Part shown: positions 2,516 to 12,239 of the stretch, in pieces
Numbering within the stretch: the first letter of the stretch is position 1
Layout: every line of letters begins with the position of its first letter
Source: Pirellulaceae bacterium
GTDB taxonomy: Bacteria > Planctomycetota > Planctomycetia > Pirellulales > Pirellulaceae
DNA: 15,427 nt
Direction: 5' to 3'
NCBI GenBank assembly: GCA_030744095.1
Contig: JASLRF010000322.1
Span: forward strand, 1 to 15,427
Program-made: the position numbers and the translations under genes
The notes under the pieces: generated by a model
What the model was told of the DNA's origin: nothing
Database searches by the model: none
What the model saw: only the letters and a program-made list of their open reading frames with translations

Positions 2516-3826
2516 ATGGCGACTGTAACGCAATTGGGTTTCAATCAAGATTCATTTGAAGCGTTCTTGGCTGCTCGTGACGAGCCAAAATGGCTGACGG
2601 ATGCCCGCCGTACCGCGTGGCAACATTTTCAGCAATCGGAATGGCCGGACCGCAATCACGAACGGTGGTTACGTACGGACATTCGGCTTTTCAAACTAGA
2701 CCGGTATGCTCCACCCCAACCGAGTGGCGAACCGTCTTCCAACATCCCCGGCGGACTGCTTTGCCCCGGTGTCGCGCTGGCCGGGCATAACCGGTCTCTG
2801 GACGGCCATTCGCTGGACTACACGCTGCACAAGAACTGGTCCGATCGCGGCGTGTTGTTCGGTAGCTTGGACAAGATGCTGGCCGATCATGATGGTCTGT
2901 TGCGGCCGCATTTCCAGAGCGCCTTCGATCCGACCCATGATCGTTTCGCTGCGCTACATGCCGCATTTTGGACAGGTGGCCAACTGTTGTACGTACCGCG
3001 CGGCATCGTCGTCGACGAACCCTTGCACGCTTTGTCCAGCATGACCGATGGCGGGACCGACCTAGGGCACGTGCTGGTCGTGCTGGAGGACGGTGCGGAA
3101 GCCACCTTATTGTGTGAAACGTCCAGCCCCAGTGAAACAGCCGGCGGCTTTCACTGTGGTGCCGTAGAACTGATCTTGGGTGCCGGTTCACATCTCCGAT
3201 TTGTCAATTTCCAGGATTGGGGACGCGGCGTATGGCACTTCGCTCACCAAAAAGCTATCGTTCACAAAGATGCCACGCTGCAATGGACCGTGGCAGCCTT
3301 GGGTAGTCGCATGGCCAAAGTCAACCAACAGGTGTCGATGGTCGATGAAGGAGCCAGTTGTCAGGTGAACGGCGTGTTATTCACCGAAGGCAAACAGCAT
3401 CTGTCCTACGACACTTTGCAACACCACGAGGCTGCGAATTGTCGTAGTGACTTTCGTTACAAAGCTGCCTTACAGGACAAGTCTCGCACGGTGTGGCGAG
3501 GGATGATTAAGGTCGATGCAGATGCGCAGAAGACGGACGGATATCAACGCAACGACAACCTCTTGTTGTCTGGTAACGCTCGGGCCGATTCCATTCCGGG
3601 CCTCGAGATCGAAGCAGATGACGTTCGGTGCACGCATGGATCGACTAGCGGTCGCGTGGATGAAGAACTGATCTTTTACGCCGGTTGCCGCGGGTATACT
3701 CGCAAAGAGGCGATCCAGATGATTGTCACCGGATTTTTTCAGCACGTCTTCGATCGCATCACGATCGAGAACGTGCGCGAGGCTTTAGCCTTGGCCATTG
3801 CCCGTCGCGTACGCGAATACGAGTAA
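2516..3826 (+). CDS. sufD: SufD, scaffold subunit of the SufBCD iron-sulfur assembly complex
   Basis: Paralogue of SufB that forms the SufB-SufD heterodimer interface where clusters assemble, and contributes to iron entry. From the chosen start (436 aa) it carries AALHAAFWTGGQLLYVPRG in the middle and KTDGYQRNDNLLLSG and LEIEADDVRCTHGSTSGRVD towards the C-terminus. Cys372 and His374 in RCTHG align with Cys358 and His360 of E. coli SufD, so the key residues are kept. The start at 2516 (MATVTQLGFN) is chosen because the product then has normal family length and begins with the usual helical region. ATG 2507 and GTG 2426 are in-frame alternatives, but the extension they add is proline-rich and unlike SufD. 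There is no clear Shine-Dalgarno, so translation may depend on coupling with sufB. Confidence 0.95.
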   Translation: MATVTQLGFNQDSFEAFLAARDEPKWLTDARRTAWQHFQQSEWPDRNHERWLRTDIRLFKLDRYAPPQPSGEPSSNIPGGLLCPGVALAGHNRSLDGHSLDYTLHKNWSDRGVLFGSLDKMLADHDGLLRPHFQSAFDPTHDRFAALHAAFWTGGQLLYVPRGIVVDEPLHALSSMTDGGTDLGHVLVVLEDGAEATLLCETSSPSETAGGFHCGAVELILGAGSHLRFVNFQDWGRGVWHFAHQKAIVHKDATLQWTVAALGSRMAKVNQQVSMVDEGASCQVNGVLFTEGKQHLSYDTLQHHEAANCRSDFRYKAALQDKSRTVWRGMIKVDADAQKTDGYQRNDNLLLSGNARADSIPGLEIEADDVRCTHGSTSGRVDEELIFYAGCRGYTRKEAIQMIVTGFFQHVFDRITIENVREALALAIARRVREYE

Positions 3827-3828
3827 CC

Positions 3829-4473
3829 ATGTCCAAATTTGTCAAAGTCGCCAATGTCAGTGACATCCCGGATCCCGGCAAGATCACCCTGGAGGTCGGC
3901 GACCGTTTGGTCGTAGTCGTCCATGTGGATGGCGAGTTTTACTGCATCGACGACGTCTGCACCCATGACGGCGGCCCGCTCGGCGACGGTGAGATGTGTG
4001 GCTTCGAATTAGCCTGTCCACGCCATGGTGCCAAGTTCGATGTGCGAACAGGTGTGCCGAGCACAATGCCCGCCACCGAACCCACCGAATCGCACCTGGT
4101 GAAAATCCAAGGTGAAGACGTCTTGGTTAGTCTGAACAATCAAGAGGATGACAGTATGGCACTTACCGAAGATGCCGTCATGGAGGAGCTGAAGAAGATC
4201 ATCGACCCCGAGCTGTTTGTCAACATTGTCGATCTCGGCTTGATCTACGGAGTCTCGATCGTCGATCGTGAAGACGAGCAAAAAGACGTCAAGATTGACA
4301 TGACAATGACTAGCCCCGCGTGTCCAGCTGGCCCGCAGTTGATCGGCAACAGCAAGCAAATTGTCGGACAGATGGAGGACGTTTGCGAGGTCGAAGTCAA
4401 AATTGTACTCGATCCGCCTTGGTCACCTGACCGCATGACCGACGATGCCCGCGACCAGCTTGGCATTTTCTAG
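3829..4473 (+). CDS. Fused Rieske [2Fe-2S] ferredoxin and SufT/DUF59 (MIP18-type) Fe-S assembly factor
   Basis: 214-aa two-domain protein starting two bases after sufD, so almost certainly co-translated with it. Residues 1-103 form a Rieske-type domain with Cys44-x-His46 and Cys63-x-x-His66 (CTH...CPRH), the usual [2Fe-2S] ligands. It resembles small ferredoxin subunits of oxygenases and the Rieske proteins found in actinobacterial suf operons. Residues 112-214 form a DUF59 domain with KKIIDPE, VDLGLIY and MTSPACPAG, including the conserved Cys165. SufT and MIP18 proteins help mature Fe-S enzymes. In other bacteria these two activities are normally separate genes in suf operons, so this appears to be a natural fusion. 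The linker at 103-111 (NNQEDDS) is short and acidic. Met110 could act as an internal start for free SufT. The electron-transfer role of the Rieske half is inferred. Confidence 0.9.
   Translation: MSKFVKVANVSDIPDPGKITLEVGDRLVVVVHVDGEFYCIDDVCTHDGGPLGDGEMCGFELACPRHGAKFDVRTGVPSTMPATEPTESHLVKIQGEDVLVSLNNQEDDSMALTEDAVMEELKKIIDPELFVNIVDLGLIYGVSIVDREDEQKDVKIDMTMTSPACPAGPQLIGNSKQIVGQMEDVCEVEVKIVLDPPWSPDRMTDDARDQLGIF
4142..4158 (+). promoter_or_regulatory. Possible internal ribosome site and start for free SufT
   Basis: AAGAGG (4142-4147) lies eight bases before an in-frame ATG at 4156, exactly at the boundary between the Rieske and DUF59 domains. Starting there would give a 105-aa protein of ordinary SufT length. 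Few genes in this window have such a good site, which makes the coincidence notable, but the two codons AAG-AGG equivalents could also arise by chance in an acidic linker. Confidence 0.4.
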
Positions 4474-4562: not shown

Positions 4563-5612
4563 ATGACCGCCATCCGCGTGTTCCTTTACGAGTTTGTGAC
4601 CGGTGGTGGCTGTTGGTCGCTCTCGAATCCCCAGCCGCCCGGCGGTACGTTGTTGACCGAGGGGACGGCGATGTTGCAGTCGCTCGCCTGCGACCTGCTG
4701 GCGGTCGGAAATCTCGAGTTGCACGTGTTGGCCGACTCGCGGTTGGCTCCTTTTTGGCCAGAAGGCAGCTGGGCCCATGAAGTCAACGGAGGATCGGACG
4801 AACGACGTCTCCTGCTTTCGCTGGCCGAAAGCTGCGACATGACGTTGGTCATCGCACCTGAGTTTGATGAACTGCTTCTAACTCGATGCCAATGGGTCGC
4901 GAGTGTTGGTGGTACGCTGCTGACCCCTAACGTCAACTTCGTCGCACTGGCTGCCAACAAACAGAAACTTGCGGACTATTTACACGCCGCGGGGCTCCCC
5001 GTGCCACGGTCAGTTGCCTTGCGCAACGGCGAGCCACTGCCCCGCAACTTTCCATTTCCGGCCGTTCTGAAGCCAATTGACGGCGCTGGCTCTCTTGCCG
5101 TGCAACTTGTCAGGACCGCAACCGAGCTCAGGGAATATCGATCATCTCGGCAGTCCTGGCGACTGGAGATGTTTCAACCAGGAACAGCGGCCAGTGTTTC
5201 CGTACTGTGTGGGCCGCAACAGAATCTAGTGTTGTTGCCGGGTCAACAACTTCTGACAAAGGATGGCCAATTCAACTATCTCGGCGGCACGTGGCCCCTT
5301 GCCGTTGGTGATCAGGAGCGAGCAGCAAAGCTGGCCACCCGCGTCGCGTTGGCGCTGCCCGCCACATGTGGCTATATCGGTATCGATTTAGTCCTGGGGC
5401 CCGCCGGCGACGGCAGCGACGATGTCGTGATCGAAGTTAACCCGCGGCTCACAACGTCCTACGTCGGCCTGCGTCAACTGACACGAACCAATCTGGCAGC
5501 AGCGATGCTGCGTGTAGCCGAAGGATTACCCGTCACCGTGACGTGGCACGATCAGGCATTGACCTATCATGTCGCCGACATGCCGCTAGGAGACCACACA
5601 TGCATTGGCTAG
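4563..5612 (+). CDS. ATP-grasp ligase, MfnD-like (methanofuran/methylofuran biosynthesis)
   Basis: 349-aa ATP-grasp enzyme. The N-terminal LYEFVTGGG (8-16) is typical of the family associated with tetrahydromethanopterin-linked C1 genes. Lys170 in AVLKP and the EMFQPG segment (202-207) fit the ATP-binding lobes, and Asp275 in GIDLVL and EVNPR (291-295) fit the magnesium-binding site. MfnD of methanogens joins glutamate to tyramine; in methylotrophic bacteria related proteins sit in clusters for methylofuran. By position with the next two genes, this enzyme probably adds glutamate to the tyramine or tyrosine part of the cofactor; the exact substrate is inferred. Its last 13 bases overlap the following gene. 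The gap to the preceding suf gene is 89 bases, so it may be transcribed with suf or from its own promoter. Other ATP-grasp carboxylate-amine ligase functions remain possible. Confidence 0.8.
   Translation: MTAIRVFLYEFVTGGGCWSLSNPQPPGGTLLTEGTAMLQSLACDLLAVGNLELHVLADSRLAPFWPEGSWAHEVNGGSDERRLLLSLAESCDMTLVIAPEFDELLLTRCQWVASVGGTLLTPNVNFVALAANKQKLADYLHAAGLPVPRSVALRNGEPLPRNFPFPAVLKPIDGAGSLAVQLVRTATELREYRSSRQSWRLEMFQPGTAASVSVLCGPQQNLVLLPGQQLLTKDGQFNYLGGTWPLAVGDQERAAKLATRVALALPATCGYIGIDLVLGPAGDGSDDVVIEVNPRLTTSYVGLRQLTRTNLAAAMLRVAEGLPVTVTWHDQALTYHVADMPLGDHTCIG
5588..5592 (+). promoter_or_regulatory. Shine-Dalgarno fixing the start of the hydantoinase-like gene
   Basis: AGGAG lies seven bases before the ATG at 5600, inside the end of the ATP-grasp gene. 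It decides in favour of MHWLGLDIGG as the true N-terminus over an upstream in-frame start at 5543. Confidence 0.75.
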
Positions 5613-6607
5613 GCCTGGACATCGGCGGTGCCAATCTCAAACTGGCAGACGGTCACGGCTATGCCAAATCACAGCCGTTCGCATTGTGGCGGCACCCGGA
5701 CGACTTGGGGGAAGAACTACGAAGGCTGATCGCACAGGCACCAACGTGCGACCACGTGGCAGTGACCATGACCGGCGAACTTGCTGATTGTTTCCAAAGC
5801 AAGGCCGAAGGCGTGCAACGGATCCTCGATGCGGTCGAGCAAGCCGCTGATGGGCGACCGACGCGTGTCTATTTGACGGGTGGCGCTTTTGAGACAGTGT
5901 CAGGCGCACGCCAACGCGTCACTGAAGTCGCCGCTGCGAATTGGCACGCTATCGCTCGGTTTTCGGGGCGGTTTGCACCGACGGGATCGGCCATCCTGAT
6001 CGACGTTGGCTCGACAACGTGCGACGTGATACCCTTGTCGGACGGTCGGTCGTGCGCCGAAGGGACCACCGATACCGAACGATTACTCAAAGGCGAACTG
6101 ATATATTCCGGTGTCATGCGCACGCCGATTTGCGGACTCGTCAGTCACATTCTTTGGCATGGTACCCTCTGCCCTGTCGCACGGGAGTGGTTTGCCACGA
6201 CACATGACGTCTATATTCTGACCAACGACCTGCCTGAGGACCCAGCTGACACCAACACAGCGGATGGCCAGATGGCGACCATCGATGCGGCCCGAACCAG
6301 GTTAGCAAGGTTGGTTTGTGCGGATGAGATGTCGCGCGCCGATGCGGTGGTCTCGGCCAAGTCAATTGCGACAATCCACGCGACTCAGATTGCTGACGGA
6401 ATTCGCCAAATTATCGCAAGAATTGGACAACCACCAGGCACTGTAATTATTTCCGGGGAAGGTGAGTTCCTTGCCAAACGTGCACTTGAGATCAATCAGC
6501 TGAGTACGAACGTGGTATCGATGAAGGACCAATTAGGTGATCGTATCTCGCGTTGTGCGCCGGCACATGCAGTAGCCGTCCTGGCCGAAGAGGATGCAGT
6601 CACATGA
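5600..6607 (+). CDS. Hydantoinase/oxoprolinase-family protein of the H4MPT-linked C1 pathway, MfnF-like
   Basis: 335-aa protein of the actin/hexokinase-fold hydantoinase-like group. LGLDIGGANLK (4-14) is the first phosphate-binding loop, ILIDVGSTTCDVIPL (132-146) the second, ELIYSGVMRTP (166-176) a family hallmark, and ISGEGE (284-289) the adenosine-side loop. Members of this group are recognised as H4MPT-linked C1 transfer pathway proteins. MfnF of methanogens condenses the aminomethylfuran phosphate with glutamyl-tyramine to build the methanofuran core. It overlaps the ATP-grasp gene by 13 bases and the kinase gene by four (ATGA), so the three are translationally coupled, which supports a shared pathway. 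A metabolic hydantoinase is unlikely because the protein is much shorter than HyuA/OplA. The reaction is assigned by family and context, not from active-site proof. Confidence 0.85.
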   Translation: MHWLGLDIGGANLKLADGHGYAKSQPFALWRHPDDLGEELRRLIAQAPTCDHVAVTMTGELADCFQSKAEGVQRILDAVEQAADGRPTRVYLTGGAFETVSGARQRVTEVAAANWHAIARFSGRFAPTGSAILIDVGSTTCDVIPLSDGRSCAEGTTDTERLLKGELIYSGVMRTPICGLVSHILWHGTLCPVAREWFATTHDVYILTNDLPEDPADTNTADGQMATIDAARTRLARLVCADEMSRADAVVSAKSIATIHATQIADGIRQIIARIGQPPGTVIISGEGEFLAKRALEINQLSTNVVSMKDQLGDRISRCAPAHAVAVLAEEDAVT

Positions 6608-7293
6608 CACGTGCAAGAATCCGTGTCATCAAGGTCGGAGGCAGCTTGCTTGAGTGCGAGCAGTTGCCTCAGCTGCTCACCCGTTGGCTGGCACAAGCTG
6701 ATGACGATCATGCAAATGAAGCCAGTGAGAAAGTGGCACGGGTTGATATCTTGATCGCTGGTGGTGGAACTTTGGCAGAGCATGTGAGACAACTCGATAA
6801 GCGTTTTGCGCTCGATTCAGAAACGTCGCATTGGATGAGCGTCAGCGCAATGAGCTGTACATCGCACTTATTGGCAAGCTTGCTGAATGCTGGCCCGCCG
6901 TGCGAGCGCTGGGATGATCTGCAAGTGATCGTCTCGGGCGGGCGGTCACAGCTGACAGTCTTTGACGCTCAGCAATGGTTGACCGAGATGGAAGGAAGCC
7001 ATCCCGGCATACGCCTTACTCATGATTGGCAAACGACCAGCGATTCGATTGCCGGCAGACTGGCTCGAGTGCTGTGCGCCGATGAATTAGTCCTGCTCAA
7101 ATCGACCGACATTCCCACTGGTATTGACTGGCGGGCTGCCACGGAGCAGGGCTTAGTGGACGGGCGCTTTCTGCAGATTGCCGCAGAATTGCCTCGCGTG
7201 GTCTGTGTCAATTTGCGCCAATTCGAGGATCCTCCAGCCACGGCGTCGCGCCCGTTGTCCGATGCCGCACCCTCCCCTGAGGCGACACGGTAA
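6604..7293 (+). CDS. Amino-acid-kinase-family protein, MfnE-like (aminomethylfuran phosphate kinase)
   Basis: 229-aa kinase of the amino-acid kinase superfamily. VIKVGGSLL (8-16) is the N-terminal phosphate loop, ILIAGGG (49-55) the second glycine loop, and THDWQTTSDSIAGRLA (139-154) with LVLLKSTD (162-169) form the nucleotide side. The W-x-x-TSDSIA signature is typical of the MfnE group, which makes the diphosphate of aminomethylfuran for the MfnF step. The ATG overlaps the stop of the previous gene as ATGA. The last 25 or so residues are proline- and alanine-rich and are probably disordered. Glutamate 5-kinase and uridylate kinase are less likely: the length, the TSDSIA motif and the neighbours argue against them. 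Substrate remains inferred. Confidence 0.83.
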   Translation: MTRARIRVIKVGGSLLECEQLPQLLTRWLAQADDDHANEASEKVARVDILIAGGGTLAEHVRQLDKRFALDSETSHWMSVSAMSCTSHLLASLLNAGPPCERWDDLQVIVSGGRSQLTVFDAQQWLTEMEGSHPGIRLTHDWQTTSDSIAGRLARVLCADELVLLKSTDIPTGIDWRAATEQGLVDGRFLQIAAELPRVVCVNLRQFEDPPATASRPLSDAAPSPEATR

Positions 7294-7551: not shown

Positions 7552-9720
7552 ATGCGATTGCTTTCAGGAAGGTCGATCCGGACGAAGCTGAGCATACTGA
7601 CGTGTGTCGTCGCAATCTCAGCGGCCACATTGACATGCATCGGACTCGGTGGACTTGGTTTTCATCTGTTGTGCACTTCCGAAGCGCATCAACTGAAGAA
7701 CCACGCGCGACTCCTTGGACATTACAGTACGCCAATTGTCACGCTCCGCAATCGCGCGGAGGGTGAGCGATTTCTGGCGTCATTGGCACACGATCCGTCC
7801 ATCGAAGCGGCTTGCCTGTTCGACATCGAGCAAAACTGCATTTCTAGTTATGGAAAAGCGAAGTCGATGACCTTTCCTTACCATATGAAGGACAAACAAT
7901 ATCGGCTGGCGTCATTCAATCGCCTTGAGGTTCTCAGTCAGATCAACACCGCCGGCCAACATATCGGCTACGTCTACTTGCTTACCAATACGAGTGCCGT
8001 TCAGGCACGGCTTGGGCAGTTCGTGCGAGGCACGGGCATCGTCTTCTTGGTCGTGTTTGGGCTCAGTTGCGTCGTTGCCGTGCCTTTTATGCGGATGATT
8101 TCAAGGCCCATCCTGAAGCTTACCAACGCTGTAAATGACATCGCCCACAACGACAAGCCTTCGATCAGTTTCTCAGGACACTTCAGCCCGGAATGCACTG
8201 CGGTGCTCAGTGCCATGAACTGCCTGCTCGCCAAGATCGAAGAGTCTGCGCTAGTTACCGAACGCACCACAACAAAGCTACAAGATCGCGTAGCCCAAGG
8301 TAGTCACGGACTCGCACAAGAACTCAAGCATCTCCAGCAGCGGCAACAAGACCTCGAACGGGCGAAGGACGCGGCAGAGGCAGCCAACATGGCAAAAAGC
8401 AGCTTTTTCGCGGACTTGAGCCAGGAGATGTCTGGCCCGCTTGACCTTATTGTTGACAATGTCCAAAGCCTGCAGCACGGCGAACAACCATCCGGTGGCC
8501 AAACATCTGAGAGTCAGTTGGAAGCGATTCGTCGCAATAGCCAACAGCTGCAACGCTTTGTTCAGGACGTTGCAGAGATTGCCAAGGTCGAGGCGGGACG
8601 TATCGAGATCACTCGCGTCGTCTGTTTGCCGCAGTCGATAATCGCGTGCGCCATCGCCGGACACCAAAGCCAGGCTGAGAAAAAAGGGCTCACTTTCGAA
8701 TACCAGTGGCGGGGAAGCGAAGAGGAGTCAATGTGTTGTGATCCCGATCGAATCCAACAGGTCGTACAGGTCCTCGTCGACAACGCCATTCGATTCACCG
8801 AAGCAGGAGGCGTACGCATCGTCGCGAGTTTCGAGCACCTTCAAGATTCTCGACAACTACGCATTGAGGTAACCGACACAGGAGTTGGAATCGAAGGGGA
8901 AGATCTCAATCAGATCTTCGAGGCATCTACACAATCGACTTGTGTTTCGCCGGACAATCGCGATACAGCCATGGGACTCCAGAATTGCCATAGAATTGTC
9001 TCGGCTTTAGGTGGGCGCATCACAGTCAATAGCTCACTTGGCGAAGGCAGCGTGTTTACCGTAATGTTAGATGCGGATGCCGTTCGACCACCGACGACTC
9101 TCGTCGGTGCCCATGACTCGAGTGTTGATTCCCCCGTCACGGTGCATTCGGCTTCAGTCCCCACAGCGGCGGCAGCGTGCGCGGAATCAGACGATCAGCC
9201 CCGGCCCTCCACCGGCAGAATGCTTCCGCTCAAAATCTTGGTGGTCGATGACAGCGACTCAAATCGCAACCTAACTCAAACCGTACTCCGTCGCGTTGGC
9301 GCCAAAGTCGAATGCGCCGAAAACGGTCTAGAAGCTGTACAAGCCGCTGCCCGTGGACCTTTTGACCTGGTCCTCATGGATATGCAAATGCCGGTCATGG
9401 ATGGCTATTCGGCCACTCGCGAGATTCACGCACAGGGCATCGACGTACCGATTATTGCACTGATTGCTTCGGCCGGCGATTTCGACGAACAAAGGTGTCG
9501 CACCGCGGGCTGCGTCGGCCATCTGACCAAACCCGTTGATGTGGCGGGCTTGCTTAGTGTCGCCAAACGTGTTTTGCCCAAGGGGAAGGCACTTGGTCGT
9601 GCCGCTCAACCGCCAGCGGAATCGCCGGAACCAGCAGAAGAACCGCGGACGGAGCCTGCAGCAAAACCGAGGTCGCCGTACGATATCGACTTGGAGCCGC
9701 AACAGGTCGACTCTTTCTGA
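7552..9720 (+). CDS. Membrane-bound hybrid sensor histidine kinase lacking the phospho-accepting His (probable pseudokinase)
   Basis: 722-aa inner-membrane protein. A membrane segment at about 12-40 and another at 161-180 flank a periplasmic sensor of about 120 residues that resembles CHASE8 (HARLLGHYSTPIV; SIEAACLFD). A HAMP-like linker (181-233) and coiled coil (240-280) follow. The dimerisation helix starts KSSFFADLSQEMSGPL (282-297): Gln291 stands where the H-box has His (usual SHEIRTPL), and the Arg-Thr of the box are also gone. The N-box Asn411 and G1 DTGVGI (442-447) are kept, but the G2 box reads DTAMGL (471-476) instead of GTGLGL. The C-terminal receiver has Asp566/Asp567, the phospho-accepting Asp610 in LMDMQMPVMDG and Lys660, but Ile638 replaces the switch Thr. 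A Pro/Glu-rich tail of about 45 residues ends the protein. It probably cannot autophosphorylate in the normal way; a signalling role through an outside kinase or by conformation is inferred. Start at 7552 puts a basic n-region before the first membrane segment; no Shine-Dalgarno is visible. Confidence 0.88.
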   Translation: MRLLSGRSIRTKLSILTCVVAISAATLTCIGLGGLGFHLLCTSEAHQLKNHARLLGHYSTPIVTLRNRAEGERFLASLAHDPSIEAACLFDIEQNCISSYGKAKSMTFPYHMKDKQYRLASFNRLEVLSQINTAGQHIGYVYLLTNTSAVQARLGQFVRGTGIVFLVVFGLSCVVAVPFMRMISRPILKLTNAVNDIAHNDKPSISFSGHFSPECTAVLSAMNCLLAKIEESALVTERTTTKLQDRVAQGSHGLAQELKHLQQRQQDLERAKDAAEAANMAKSSFFADLSQEMSGPLDLIVDNVQSLQHGEQPSGGQTSESQLEAIRRNSQQLQRFVQDVAEIAKVEAGRIEITRVVCLPQSIIACAIAGHQSQAEKKGLTFEYQWRGSEEESMCCDPDRIQQVVQVLVDNAIRFTEAGGVRIVASFEHLQDSRQLRIEVTDTGVGIEGEDLNQIFEASTQSTCVSPDNRDTAMGLQNCHRIVSALGGRITVNSSLGEGSVFTVMLDADAVRPPTTLVGAHDSSVDSPVTVHSASVPTAAAACAESDDQPRPSTGRMLPLKILVVDDSDSNRNLTQTVLRRVGAKVECAENGLEAVQAAARGPFDLVLMDMQMPVMDGYSATREIHAQGIDVPIIALIASAGDFDEQRCRTAGCVGHLTKPVDVAGLLSVAKRVLPKGKALGRAAQPPAESPEPAEEPRTEPAAKPRSPYDIDLEPQQVDSF

Positions 9721-9753: not shown

Positions 9754-10824
9754 TTATTGGGACCTCTTGGCGTTGCGCTGAAACCGTCGATTGAATATCT
9801 CTGGATCGAACGGATCGCGAGGCTGGTATTCTTCGGCGAGATTCGCGCCTCGACTTGTCTCTGATGGCGTTGCGGCAGGCGAAGTGTCGTCCGTCGAAAA
9901 TGCATTTATCGATTCGGCCACCGCTTCAGCCCGCGTCTGCAGGAGAAATGCAGGAGGCCCAGCGATCGACGCTGGCAAATTTGCGATGGGCTGGCTGGCA
10001 AGATCTGCGATCCACTTCGCCAACATCTGGACTTGATGCGTCTCGGTTTCGGAAAAAACTGCTTCACGGCCGCCGTGCTGCGTTCTTGCCATTGTCACGA
10101 GTTTCGATTGGCGGGGATTGCGACGATCGACATAGCCGAGCGTCGCAACCAGATTGCGTTGCGTCATTCGGCGCGACAACGATTGACGCAAAGTAGGCCG
10201 CAGCAGTCGGAATTCTGATTTGCTCCTGGAGCCGTGGCATCCGTTGGTCGCGCAGCGGTTCATCAGCAAGGGTTGTACGGAAGTGACGAATTGCTGAACC
10301 ATACCTGACGGCAACGCATCGACTGTCTGTTCGACTTCATGAAGTGCCAGGGCCGCTCTCGCTTTCGGTGTCACGGGCGTCGCATTATCGGCATGTCTCT
10401 CCATGGCCAGCAATTGACGCTCAATGATATCGATCCCAGCAGCATCTGAATCCAACGCAAAGGCCATCAACGTCTGATCCGCTGCGCGCGCTGCAAGATC
10501 ATGCTGGAGACACCAGCGTGCCAGGGCCAGATGTCCCGCACGACTTCCACGTTCGAGTTGCAATACCTTGTATTGGTAAAGGGCTTCCAGATCTGCACAC
10601 ACCAGTTCGACCGAAGCAGCGGGCAGACGAACTTCACTCGTCACGCCCCGAGTCACCAAGTAGTAGTCACCAGTTCGCGTAATGTCGCCCTTCAACGTCT
10701 GCCCATTGCGCAGCAGCACGATGCCTTCGTCAGAACTCACGATCGTCGCTGGTGACTGGGCAAGTGCGCCGGAGACAATGAACGACGTCACTAGGGTGCA
10801 CACCATGTGGATCTGAAATCTCAT
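9754..10824 (-). CDS. Secreted planctomycete protein with a cytochrome-c-like domain (CX4CH motif)
   Basis: 356-aa protein with an N-terminal signal peptide (MRFQIHMVCTLVTSFIVSGALA, cleavage probably before Gln24), so exported. Residues about 30-75 form a small beta-rich module (IVLLRNGQTLKGDI). A helical region follows. At residues 191-197, in LLMNRCATNGCHG, is Cys-x4-Cys-His, a rarer form of the haem c attachment motif that is known from multihaem cytochromes. It is followed by SKLVTMARTQHGG and LAKWIADLAS, a pattern seen in planctomycete c-type cytochrome domains, where an HGG and a terminal WI are usual. A Pro/Ser-rich tail ends in FNRRFQRNAK. Haem binding is inferred; the two Cys could instead form a disulfide. 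An upstream ATG at 10848 and TTG at 10851 are alternative starts. It converges with the sensor kinase gene, 33 bases away, and lies downstream of mtaB. No specific function is recognised. Confidence 0.75.
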   Translation of the reverse strand: MRFQIHMVCTLVTSFIVSGALAQSPATIVSSDEGIVLLRNGQTLKGDITRTGDYYLVTRGVTSEVRLPAASVELVCADLEALYQYKVLQLERGSRAGHLALARWCLQHDLAARAADQTLMAFALDSDAAGIDIIERQLLAMERHADNATPVTPKARAALALHEVEQTVDALPSGMVQQFVTSVQPLLMNRCATNGCHGSRSKSEFRLLRPTLRQSLSRRMTQRNLVATLGYVDRRNPRQSKLVTMARTQHGGREAVFSETETHQVQMLAKWIADLASQPIANLPASIAGPPAFLLQTRAEAVAESINAFSTDDTSPAATPSETSRGANLAEEYQPRDPFDPEIFNRRFQRNAKRSQ

Positions 10825-10877
10825 GGGGCCGGAGACTACGGAGCCCATCAAGCGACGTCAAGATCAGTCGTGGAAAG

Positions 10878-10940: not shown

Positions 10941-12239
10941 TCAAACGGCCTCCAGAGGCGCCGTCGGGGCACATCCATGAATCCGATCGCCGACGACCGC
11001 ACCGGCAGTTACATCGACCAGCGAACCACAGAGTTCCGTCCCGCCGCTGAACTCGACGGGCGCGTATCGACACGAGGTACCGACCAGCTTGCCGGGTGAT
11101 TCTGGGTCCATCCCTTCGACGAGGACTCGTAACGGCGTGCCGTTTAGCCGTTCAAAGTACTGTTTTCGCAGTTCCGCTTCCAATTTAGACATTTGCCGAC
11201 TGCGTTGCGACTTGATCGGTTTGGGCAGTTGCTCGGGCATGTCCGCCGCCGGCGTGTCTCGCCGTGGGCTAAATGAAAAAACATGGACTTTGGAAAACCC
11301 AACTTCACCGACGACTCGGCAGCTCTCCTCAAAGTCGGCATCAGTTTCACCAGGAAAACCGACAATCACATCGGTTGAAAAGGCGGGCTTGTCGAGCGCG
11401 TCAGCGGCCATCCCGCAACGATCGACAAACATCTTCGCTCCCCAGCGCCGCTTCATGCGACGCAGGATTCGGTCCGAACCGCTTTGCAAACAGACATGAA
11501 GATGAGGGCACACCTTATTCTCGTATTCTCGCATCACACGGAGCAATTCTCGCGTAACCTCCGTGGCTTCGATGCTGGACAGACGAATCCGAAAATCACC
11601 CTCAAGCTTCGCCAGCTGTTCGACCAGATCGGCGAGACGCGTCCACTTGCTCTTCGGCTTGTTCCGATTCCAGTCAACTCCGTAGTGCCCAAGATGCACG
11701 CCCGTCAGCACAATCTCGCGATAGCCGTTGTCCTGTAGGCGCCGAACTTCATCCAGAATTGGTTGCATGGGGCGGCTGTACATCTGCGGCCGCACTTTGG
11801 GAATGATACAGTAGCTGCAACGCAACAAACAGCCGTCTTGTACTTTGACGTAAGCGCGGTGTCGATTGCCAAAACCAGAAATCCCGGTTGGAATATCGAC
11901 AACGCCGAAGCGTCCCAACAAATCTGGAAGCTCACGCTTGTCGGTTACAACTTCGACAACTTGCGGCAGGCTAGCAACTTCATCCGGCGCGCGCGTCGCA
12001 TAGCACCCCATTACCACAATTCGCGTCTGCGGATTCTCACGCGCCAGCCGCCGGATGACACGCCGACTTTTCGCGTCGCCTTCATTGGTGACCGTGCAGG
12101 TGTTCACAACGCACAAGTCGGCCTGTTCGTCGTCGGCAACGTTTCGATAGCCAATGCCCACCAATCCCTCGCGGACAAACTCCGTCTCGTATTGGTTGAC
12201 TTTGCAGCCCAAGGTGACAGTTCTTAACGTGGCGCTCAT
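10941..12239 (-). CDS. mtaB: MtaB, tRNA t6A37 methylthiotransferase (radical SAM)
   Basis: 432-aa radical-SAM methylthiotransferase that converts t6A to ms2t6A at position 37 of tRNAs reading ANN codons. The N-terminal UPF0004 domain carries Cys12 in LGCKVNQYETE, Cys48 in VNTCTVTN and Cys79 in VMGCYAT, ligands of the auxiliary [4Fe-4S] cluster. The radical-SAM motif is Cys137-x3-Cys141-x2-Cys144 (DGCLLRCSYCIIPKVR). A C-terminal TRAM domain (about 370-432, including RVLVEGMD and VGDRIHGC) binds tRNA. LGCKVNQYE and TVTNEGDAKSR match MtaB rather than MiaB or RimO, which have different sequences at these places. The enzyme needs two Fe-S clusters, which fits loosely with the suf genes upstream in the window, although they are not in one operon. 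The start at 12239 gives the canonical N-terminus. Confidence 0.95.
   Translation of the reverse strand: MSATLRTVTLGCKVNQYETEFVREGLVGIGYRNVADDEQADLCVVNTCTVTNEGDAKSRRVIRRLARENPQTRIVVMGCYATRAPDEVASLPQVVEVVTDKRELPDLLGRFGVVDIPTGISGFGNRHRAYVKVQDGCLLRCSYCIIPKVRPQMYSRPMQPILDEVRRLQDNGYREIVLTGVHLGHYGVDWNRNKPKSKWTRLADLVEQLAKLEGDFRIRLSSIEATEVTRELLRVMREYENKVCPHLHVCLQSGSDRILRRMKRRWGAKMFVDRCGMAADALDKPAFSTDVIVGFPGETDADFEESCRVVGEVGFSKVHVFSFSPRRDTPAADMPEQLPKPIKSQRSRQMSKLEAELRKQYFERLNGTPLRVLVEGMDPESPGKLVGTSCRYAPVEFSGGTELCGSLVDVTAGAVVGDRIHGCAPTAPLEAV

Follow-up and report, generated by a model that had tools for sequence, protein, structure and literature searches.

A CHASE8 hybrid histidine kinase of a Pirellulaceae bacterium with a probably inactive kinase core, and sensor-receiver proteins without that core at the same locus

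What does a hybrid sensor kinase do when the histidine that it should phosphorylate has been replaced? The question is raised by a gene on a contig of a Pirellulaceae bacterium (JASLRF010000322.1, assembly GCA_030744095.1); the whole stretch of 15,427 nucleotides that was analysed is called the window here. The gene is a single open frame, from ATG to stop, at 7552-9720 on the plus strand, and encodes a CHASE8 hybrid kinase of 722 residues. A preliminary description had called the product a pseudo-histidine kinase with an intact frame, a Gln at the phospho-acceptor site and a degenerate G2 box, and had proposed that it senses a periplasmic signal and works by conformation, by dimerising with an active kinase or as a phosphate sink. 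The protein was compared with its homologues, and the locus with that of related genomes. The clade to which the protein belongs is almost certainly an inherited dead kinase, and the orthologous gene at the same locus of two relatives was found without the DHp and ATPase core. The features of the gene, all on the plus strand, are as follows.

7552..9720, plus: CHASE8 hybrid histidine kinase, 722 aa, probably kinase-dead (frame translation, Pfam scan)
7681..7980, plus: CHASE8 domain, putative periplasmic sensor, residues 44-143 (Pfam PF17152, 34.1 bits, cut-off 27)
7993..8154, plus: second membrane helix and eroded HAMP, residues 148-201 (model helix 148-199; HAMP 13.9 bits)
8392..8598, plus: DHp (HisKA-like) hairpin, residues 281-349 (Pfam match under cut-off; model helices 213-308 and 319-347)
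8422..8424, plus: Gln291, codon CAG, at the phospho-acceptor site (alignment, codon reading)
8740..9075, plus: HATPase (CA) domain, residues 397-508, with Asn411 and the G1 motif DTGVG retained (Pfam, alignment)
8962..8979, plus: G2 box / ATP lid DTAMGL, residues 471-476 (alignment, model)
9235..9558, plus: receiver domain, residues 562-669, with Asp566, Asp567, Asp610 and Lys660 retained (Pfam, alignment)
9463..9465, plus: T638I, codon ATT, Ile at the conserved receiver switch Thr (alignment; same in the homologue P0002)
9601..9717, plus: disordered C-terminal tail, residues 684-722, at the Hpt position of canonical relatives (model confidence, pLDDT, below 50)

Lesions of the kinase core and their inheritance

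The H box of the window protein reads FFADLSQEMSGPLD, in which the His, Arg and Thr of HEIRTPLN are replaced by Gln, Ser and Gly. The codon and the alignment agree on Gln291, and the alignment also confirmed DTAMGL in place of GTGLGL at residues 471-476, as the preliminary description had read them. The Pfam HisKA match reached 22.6 bits, under the cut-off of 26.9, while HATPase_c (79.4 bits) and Response_reg (84.7 bits) were both over theirs. The marks of an active HisKA kinase were thus found in part: the His, a HisKA match over cut-off and GTGLGL are absent, and the N box (Asn411) and G1 (DTGVG) are intact. Loss of autophosphorylation in this protein is therefore probable, as judged from its motifs. 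Three further changes had escaped the earlier description, namely T638I in the receiver, the eroded HAMP and the lost Hpt. The receiver keeps the DD pair (Asp566, Asp567), Asp610 and Lys660, and is a pseudo-receiver in the sense of PMC12632262, since it gives a Response_reg match and one of the five key residues is gone (T638I). HAMP scored 13.9 bits against a cut-off of 25, compared with 37-49 in four scanned canonical relatives. The Pfam scan gave no Hpt match in the window protein or in its homologues P0003-P0005, and listed no PAS match in the window protein. The proposed periplasmic sensor is supported by the CHASE8 match over cut-off; NCBIfam NF053592 matches residues 8-231 under its cut-off (87.1 versus 194).

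The order of parts is membrane helix, CHASE8, membrane helix, eroded HAMP, DHp-like hairpin, HATPase, receiver and disordered tail. An AlphaFold2 model (49 sequences; mean pLDDT 77; predicted template modelling score, pTM, 0.36) retained the DHp, CA and receiver folds, with residues 460-466 beside the G2 box below pLDDT 50; because the pTM is low, the relative arrangement of the domains is not given by the model. In a Foldseek search with the core, entries of HK853, DivL (4q20) and RetS were among the best matches. Near the C-terminus, the segment SPYDIDLEPQ (residues 708-717, window 9673-9702) shows few changes across P0001, P0003 and P0004 behind a variable stretch, and is less conserved in P0005; it may be a short binding motif.

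Protein searches were made against 5.8 billion proteins with the whole protein, with a profile of four members and with residues 1-310 alone; in the first two, scoring was limited to the 7,994 candidates with the most words in common, and the third took in 3,817 candidates. Among the matches listed (for the whole protein, the best 120 of 893), four full-length members stand apart: the window protein (P0001/P0002), P0003 (57% identical), P0004 (56%) and P0005 (47%). The next-best match, P0006, is 33% identical and has the His. Residue 291 could be aligned in 144 of 145 listed homologues (not in P0085), which are best matches and not a random sample; 140 have His, and only P0002-P0005 have another residue. 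The four full-length members read Q, R, Q and R at this site, and DTAMGL, DSVRGL, EAAMGL and IVPRGL in the G2 box. Asn411, Asp442, Gly444 and Gly446 are retained in all four, with DTGxG as G1, and all five receiver residues are present in P0003, P0004 and P0005. The HisKA match of P0004 was 20.9 bits, and none was listed for P0003 or P0005; CHASE8 was over its cut-off in P0003 (31.3) and under it in P0004 (23.8) and P0005 (24.3). No member of this pseudo-clade reached the HAMP cut-off.

P0002, an entry of 15 member sequences and 2 contigs, is identical to the window protein except at residue 198, Gln291, DTAMGL and T638I included, which makes a base-calling error in one assembly unlikely. Together with the differing substitutions in the four full-length members, this second entry led to the rejection of a sequencing error or a recent change; the preliminary description had itself argued against a single sequencing error. 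The alignment of orthologues that it had called for found neither the His nor GTGLGL in any of the four.

A tree built from 21 full-length proteins joined the four members in one clade (support 100/100) on a long stem (1.44 changes per column), and its sister group was the canonical kinases L128 and L129 (97/95; midpoint root). The designation as a pseudo-histidine kinase is thus upheld by a loss common to the whole clade. His and GTGLGL were present in 17/17 canonical rows aligned. The relatives L165, L166, L167 and L169 (the genes of L128-L131) have the order CHASE8-HAMP-HisKA-HATPase-REC-Hpt with all six domains over cut-off. In the pseudo-clade the His, the G2 box and the Hpt are gone, and HAMP is no longer recognisable. 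By this tree and domain order, the window protein is a descendant of an ordinary hybrid kinase of that six-domain type. The next gene encodes a receiver-HD-GYP protein in L166, L167 and L169 and a DUF1598 protein in L165; the window gene has no HD-GYP neighbour and is flanked by an amino acid kinase family gene and a gene of unknown function. The same pairing, with a receiver-HD-GYP gene directly after the CHASE8 hybrid kinase, recurs at L001, where the second gene was read by eye. In L130 (the kinase at G589:C16), the receiver motif reads LMHMQMP, with His in place of the phospho-acceptor Asp, and the kinase His and GTGLGL are intact, so that it is the receiver, and not the kinase, that looks dead there.

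The distribution of change within the clade was compared with that in three overlapping sets of four canonical relatives each. Mean pairwise identity in the clade was 0.50 for the H box and 0.30 for the lid and G2 box, against 0.90-1.00 and 0.75-0.94 in the canonical sets. The receiver was the most conserved domain of the clade (0.77 versus 0.57-0.73), and CHASE8 (0.60) was above two of the three canonical sets (0.30, 0.32 and 0.62). The N box (0.77) and G1 (0.72) were still conserved, and DHp (0.44) was among the less conserved domains.

The four-member alignment matched 18 of 392 genomes of the phylum at E ≤ 1e-90 (two candidates scored per genome) and 127 of 241 genomes of one family, which takes in Pirellulaceae and Neorhodopirellula genomes, at E ≤ 1e-80 (four candidates scored per genome). 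A motif script run on the 20 best loci, L128-L147 (19 printed, not L137), found HEIRTP in 17 and GTGLGL or GSGLGL in 19; its H-box pattern missed L141 and L143. Two loci that resembled pseudo-members by length, L158 (G454, adjoining the C1-protein gene) and L159 (G459), were rejected, as both read HEIRTP and are canonical. A change of Tyr to His at K-3 was present in 6/6 proteins of the clade, counting the two core-less orthologues described below, and in 0/17 canonical rows; it was dropped as decisive proof of a lost receiver switch because His is also there in 5/44 rows outside the clade. The N-box change K414R occurs in 1/44 outside rows.

Orthologues without the core at the same locus

The genes around the kinase gene served as anchors for a comparison of gene order.

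4563-5612, plus: ATP-grasp protein, upstream neighbour (domain scan)
within 5543-6607, plus: tetrahydromethanopterin (H4MPT)-linked C1 protein, TIGR03123 over cut-off, upstream (domain scan)
within 6553-7293, plus: amino acid kinase family protein, upstream (domain scan)
9754-10851, minus: unknown 365-aa protein (p365), downstream anchor (gene order shared with L161 and L162)
10941-12239, minus: MtaB, downstream anchor (gene order shared with L161 and L162)

A search with the C1 protein matched 222 of the 241 family genomes, and gene order was compared at its locus in 12 genomes, the ten best matches plus G003 and G589 (the whole synteny material comprised 17 stretches from 13 genomes). The window order of ATP-grasp, C1 protein, amino acid kinase family protein, kinase, p365 and MtaB was found on both sides of the kinase position in 2 of the 12, G400 (L161) and G399 (L162). 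The L161 orthologue, at 2879-4102 between the amino acid kinase gene and the gene of the 365-aa protein, has 407 aa. The L162 orthologue occupies the same interval and has 434 aa from the first ATG or 474 from a TTG. Both consist of a CHASE8-like N-terminus, a linker and a receiver, and lack the DHp and ATPase core, so that two of the three known positional orthologues are core-less. The Pfam receiver match was over cut-off for L161 (69.0) and under it for L162 (24.2 versus 30.2); for CHASE8, L161 scored 19.4, under the cut-off of 27, and L162 gave no match. The receiver of L161 carries D567S and K660Q, and in that of L162 SA replaces DD. A search for more orthologues with the L161 protein matched 237 of the 241 genomes but was swamped by ordinary receivers, with seven candidates scored per genome, so that weak ones may be missed.

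A Pfam CHASE8 scan for a canonical paralogue picked up the known gene and no other in G400. In G399 it gave no match, so that even the known gene was missed and the scan is insensitive. G400 has an intact kinase with HEIRTP, GTGLGL and a C-terminal segment aligning with the Hpt end of the relatives, adjoining a gene 53% identical to the L166 HD-GYP regulator. It is a possible partner of the core-less protein; its N-terminus, cut by the contig end, may be PAS-like, as read by eye.

All six proteins formed one clade (100/100) in a tree of the sensor and receiver parts, with the inner branching unresolved; in approximately unbiased (AU) tests neither one core-less clade (p 0.35) nor one full-length clade (p 0.23) was rejected. 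A tree of ten flanking proteins, for which G400 lacked four SUF-side proteins and part of the peptidase, paired the window with G400 (94/91; 96% of bootstrap trees), followed by G399 and then G446/G447. Two shared derived states were found for the window and G400, and 0 for the other pairings. If this pairing holds, the core was lost separately in the lineages of G400 and G399; two independent losses are thus probable, on these trees.

The fate of the gene was also considered from its rate of change. At flanking four-fold sites, K between the window and L161 was about 1.1 (MtaB 1.11, p365 1.06). Neutral simulation at K 1.0-1.4, under a simple model that ignores base-composition bias and alignment gain, left a mean identity of 12-18% (25% at most in any one run); each segment gathered 5-8 stops, and stop-free runs numbered 0 or 1 in 200. 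The observed identities were 39% for the sensor and 54% for the receiver, about 2-5 times the neutral mean, and the frames are open over 723 (window), 408 (L161) and 435 (L162) codons. From this identity above neutral and the open frame it follows that the gene was kept for most of its history. The ratio of nonsynonymous to synonymous change (dN/dS, by NG86 and near saturation) was about 0.18 for the receiver between the window and L161, like that of p365 (about 0.17); the sensor dS was not computable. Between the window and L162, identity was 26% for the sensor and 33% for the receiver, with dN/dS about 0.37-0.39 near saturation, and by these figures constraint is weaker towards G399.

Explanations for the function of the protein

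Among the three modes of action in the preliminary description, conformation fits best. We favour, as on balance somewhat probable, a kinase-dead sensor-receiver that acts by conformation or binding and whose core is being discarded. Autophosphorylation would be lost in the window protein, and a transmembrane sensor joined to a receiver fold would survive. The periplasmic CHASE8 domain would change where the membrane-tethered receiver lies or how accessible it is. The receiver would bind a kinase, an Hpt protein or a response regulator from another two-component system and titrate, recruit or inhibit this partner; the DHp and ATPase core would be at most a linker or dimer scaffold, and deletable. 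Output by binding, set by the sensor, is suggested because sensor and receiver are shared at the locus, the core is dispensable and the receiver chemistry is damaged in all three positional orthologues. The sequences themselves give the absence of His, G2 box and Hpt in four full-length members, the core-less orthologues at the locus and the receiver lesions in the window, L161 and L162. That the receiver fold is the output seems fairly probable to us; whether the output is independent of phosphorylation is evenly balanced.

Several points weigh against this reading. P0003-P0005 keep the five receiver residues, so that phosphorylation may matter in part of the clade. The N box and G1 remain conserved, and a mere linker would not need Asn411 and DTGxG in all four full-length members. 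The sensor of L162 was called from its position and a tblastn hit of low strength (E 3e-12, 30% identity over 152 residues); Pfam scores the L162 receiver below cut-off, and the strong divergence of this orthologue is as expected of relaxed selection. The sensor-plus-receiver gene tree does not fix the branch point of the core-less forms, and in a tree of three flanking proteins the grouping of the window with G400 is weak (79/52). In G399 the HD-GYP regulator had no match at E 1e-60.

A wider version of the favoured reading is that at one locus, and probably twice, a hybrid kinase has turned into a transmitter-less protein in which CHASE8 directly controls a pseudo-receiver; we regard it as possible though doubtful. 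The window protein would be the intermediate, with a dead kinase, a disabled receiver switch and a core that is present yet no longer needed. If true, this would be a class of sensor signalling without a phosphotransfer step of its own.

An unlikely alternative is the phosphate sink, in which the receiver would drain phosphoryl groups from another kinase or Hpt protein without switching, and the sensor would gate the drain. By the alignments, residue 638 probably corresponds to Thr87 of CheY. The CheY variant T87I is reported to be phosphorylatable, to be unable to turn the motor and to autodephosphorylate about 5-fold more slowly (PMC3774744); T638I would be the natural counterpart of this non-signalling mutant. 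With Asp610, DD and Lys660 unaltered and Ile at the switch position, the window protein alone could be such a trap; the same catalytic residues are kept in P0003-P0005, and the receiver is the clade's best conserved domain. However, the L161 and L162 proteins have lost catalytic residues and still keep the receiver, which weakens the case for a sink at Asp610, although the window protein and P0003-P0005 could still act as one. The window protein also has no Hpt match, and a cognate phosphoryl donor was not recognised among the scanned neighbours of the window.

Less likely again is a modulator resembling DivL, ChrS or RetS, whose DHp hairpin would form mixed dimers with an active kinase or dock its regulator and so alter its activity. 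RetS is a precedent for a modulator of an active kinase, and DivL is not known to have a receiver. The DHp-CA fold is predicted to be intact and near the structures of HK853, DivL and RetS, and the N box and G1 are well conserved. DivL of Caulobacter, with Tyr at the site, is reported to have neither kinase nor phosphatase activity, and its Y550H variant did not regain autokinase activity but accumulated phosphate in the joint presence of DivK~P and ATP (PMC4211667); a dead ChrS of Corynebacterium acts via a paralogous kinase (PMC9491836). DivL resembles the window protein in having a histidine kinase fold with the phospho-acceptor His replaced and a core similar to the window model (PMC4211667, PMC5361649), and absence of autophosphorylation is shown for DivL and would follow by motif for the window protein. 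It differs in its Tyr, its PAS sensors and its binding of DivK~P; proteins of the window clade have Gln or Arg, CHASE8, a ruined G2 box and their own receiver. The ChrS variant likewise alters signalling without a working CA domain; it is a laboratory frameshift, whereas the loss in the clade is natural, inherited, includes the His site and concerns a hybrid protein (PMC9491836). Against such a modulator, DHp is among the less conserved domains and is missing from two of the three positional orthologues; dimerisation through the kinase core, as proposed in the preliminary description, cannot be the shared function of the locus because L161 and L162 lack that core.

We consider it quite improbable that the gene is a relic whose role went with the Hpt and the HD-GYP neighbour and which decays domain by domain. 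It is true that H box, G2, HAMP, Hpt and receiver have all been hit, that two deletions of the core are probable, that L162 is highly divergent, that the gene was found at the locus only in G400 and G399 of the 12 compared genomes, and that the whole-protein searches gave four full-length members. The long open frames, the identities above the neutral mean and a receiver dN/dS like that of p365 (near saturation in both) speak against decay. An active kinase with an alternative phospho-acceptor is barely credible: the four ATP-site residues are kept in 4/4 full-length members, but the G2 box and lid are lost in all four, site 291 has Q or R and no conserved replacement is present, and DivL is reported to show no autokinase activity and weak TNP-ATP binding (PMC4211667).

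To our knowledge, the role of most pseudo-histidine kinases is still an open question. RcsD has an Hpt domain. Another residue, Gln and Arg included, occupies the His site in about 1% of sensor kinases (PMC5361649), and 722 of 76,471 sampled HisKA domains lack the His (PMC12632262). The window protein is of this pseudo-histidine kinase kind, as its motifs indicate, and differs from DivL. RcsD likewise lies in the membrane and is described as part of a phosphorelay, with a pseudo-histidine-kinase domain (PMC3762810), while the window protein ends in a receiver and is without an Hpt. Published pseudo-receivers share the loss of key residues (PMC12632262), which here are Thr to Ile in the window, one D and the K in L161 and DD in L162; the difference is that these receivers sit on a dead-kinase chain or directly behind a transmembrane sensor. 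The canonical CHASE8 kinases L165, L166, L167 and L169 have the same order of sensor, DHp, CA and receiver and differ in keeping His, GTGLGL, HAMP and Hpt. Among the titles and beginnings of abstracts listed on pseudokinase histidine kinases, CHASE8 kinases, planctomycete pseudokinases and kinase-domain loss, none described the pseudo-clade family. As far as these listings reach, a series that leads from the canonical kinase through the dead hybrid kinase to a sensor-receiver without the core, with the latter two forms sharing one locus, is new. It offers a graded natural set, with the intact kinase elsewhere in relatives, the dead kinase with its core, and sensor plus receiver without it; comparing the three forms side by side would show whether the dead kinase works via the DHp core, the receiver or the sensor.

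Neighbouring genes

A promoter scan found 0 promoters, with 1.2 expected by chance. Beyond MtaB lie ClpS and a protein that reads like an M20 peptidase by eye. The 365-aa protein at 9754-10851 on the minus strand has a C-x4-CH motif, RCATNGCHG, which is also present in relatives at L109, L110, L161 and L162, and it may bind haem with an unusual spacing. A single frame at 3685-4473 joins a Rieske ferredoxin domain to a SufT-like FeS_assembly_P domain; they form one aligned piece in L162 and separate pieces in L170 and L173. The three genes at 4563-7293 are MfnD-, MfnF- and MfnE-like (methanofuran/H4MPT cofactor biosynthesis), with only TIGR03123 over cut-off. They come after SUF iron-sulfur cluster genes, an arrangement seen again in L162, L164, L170, L171, L173 and L174.

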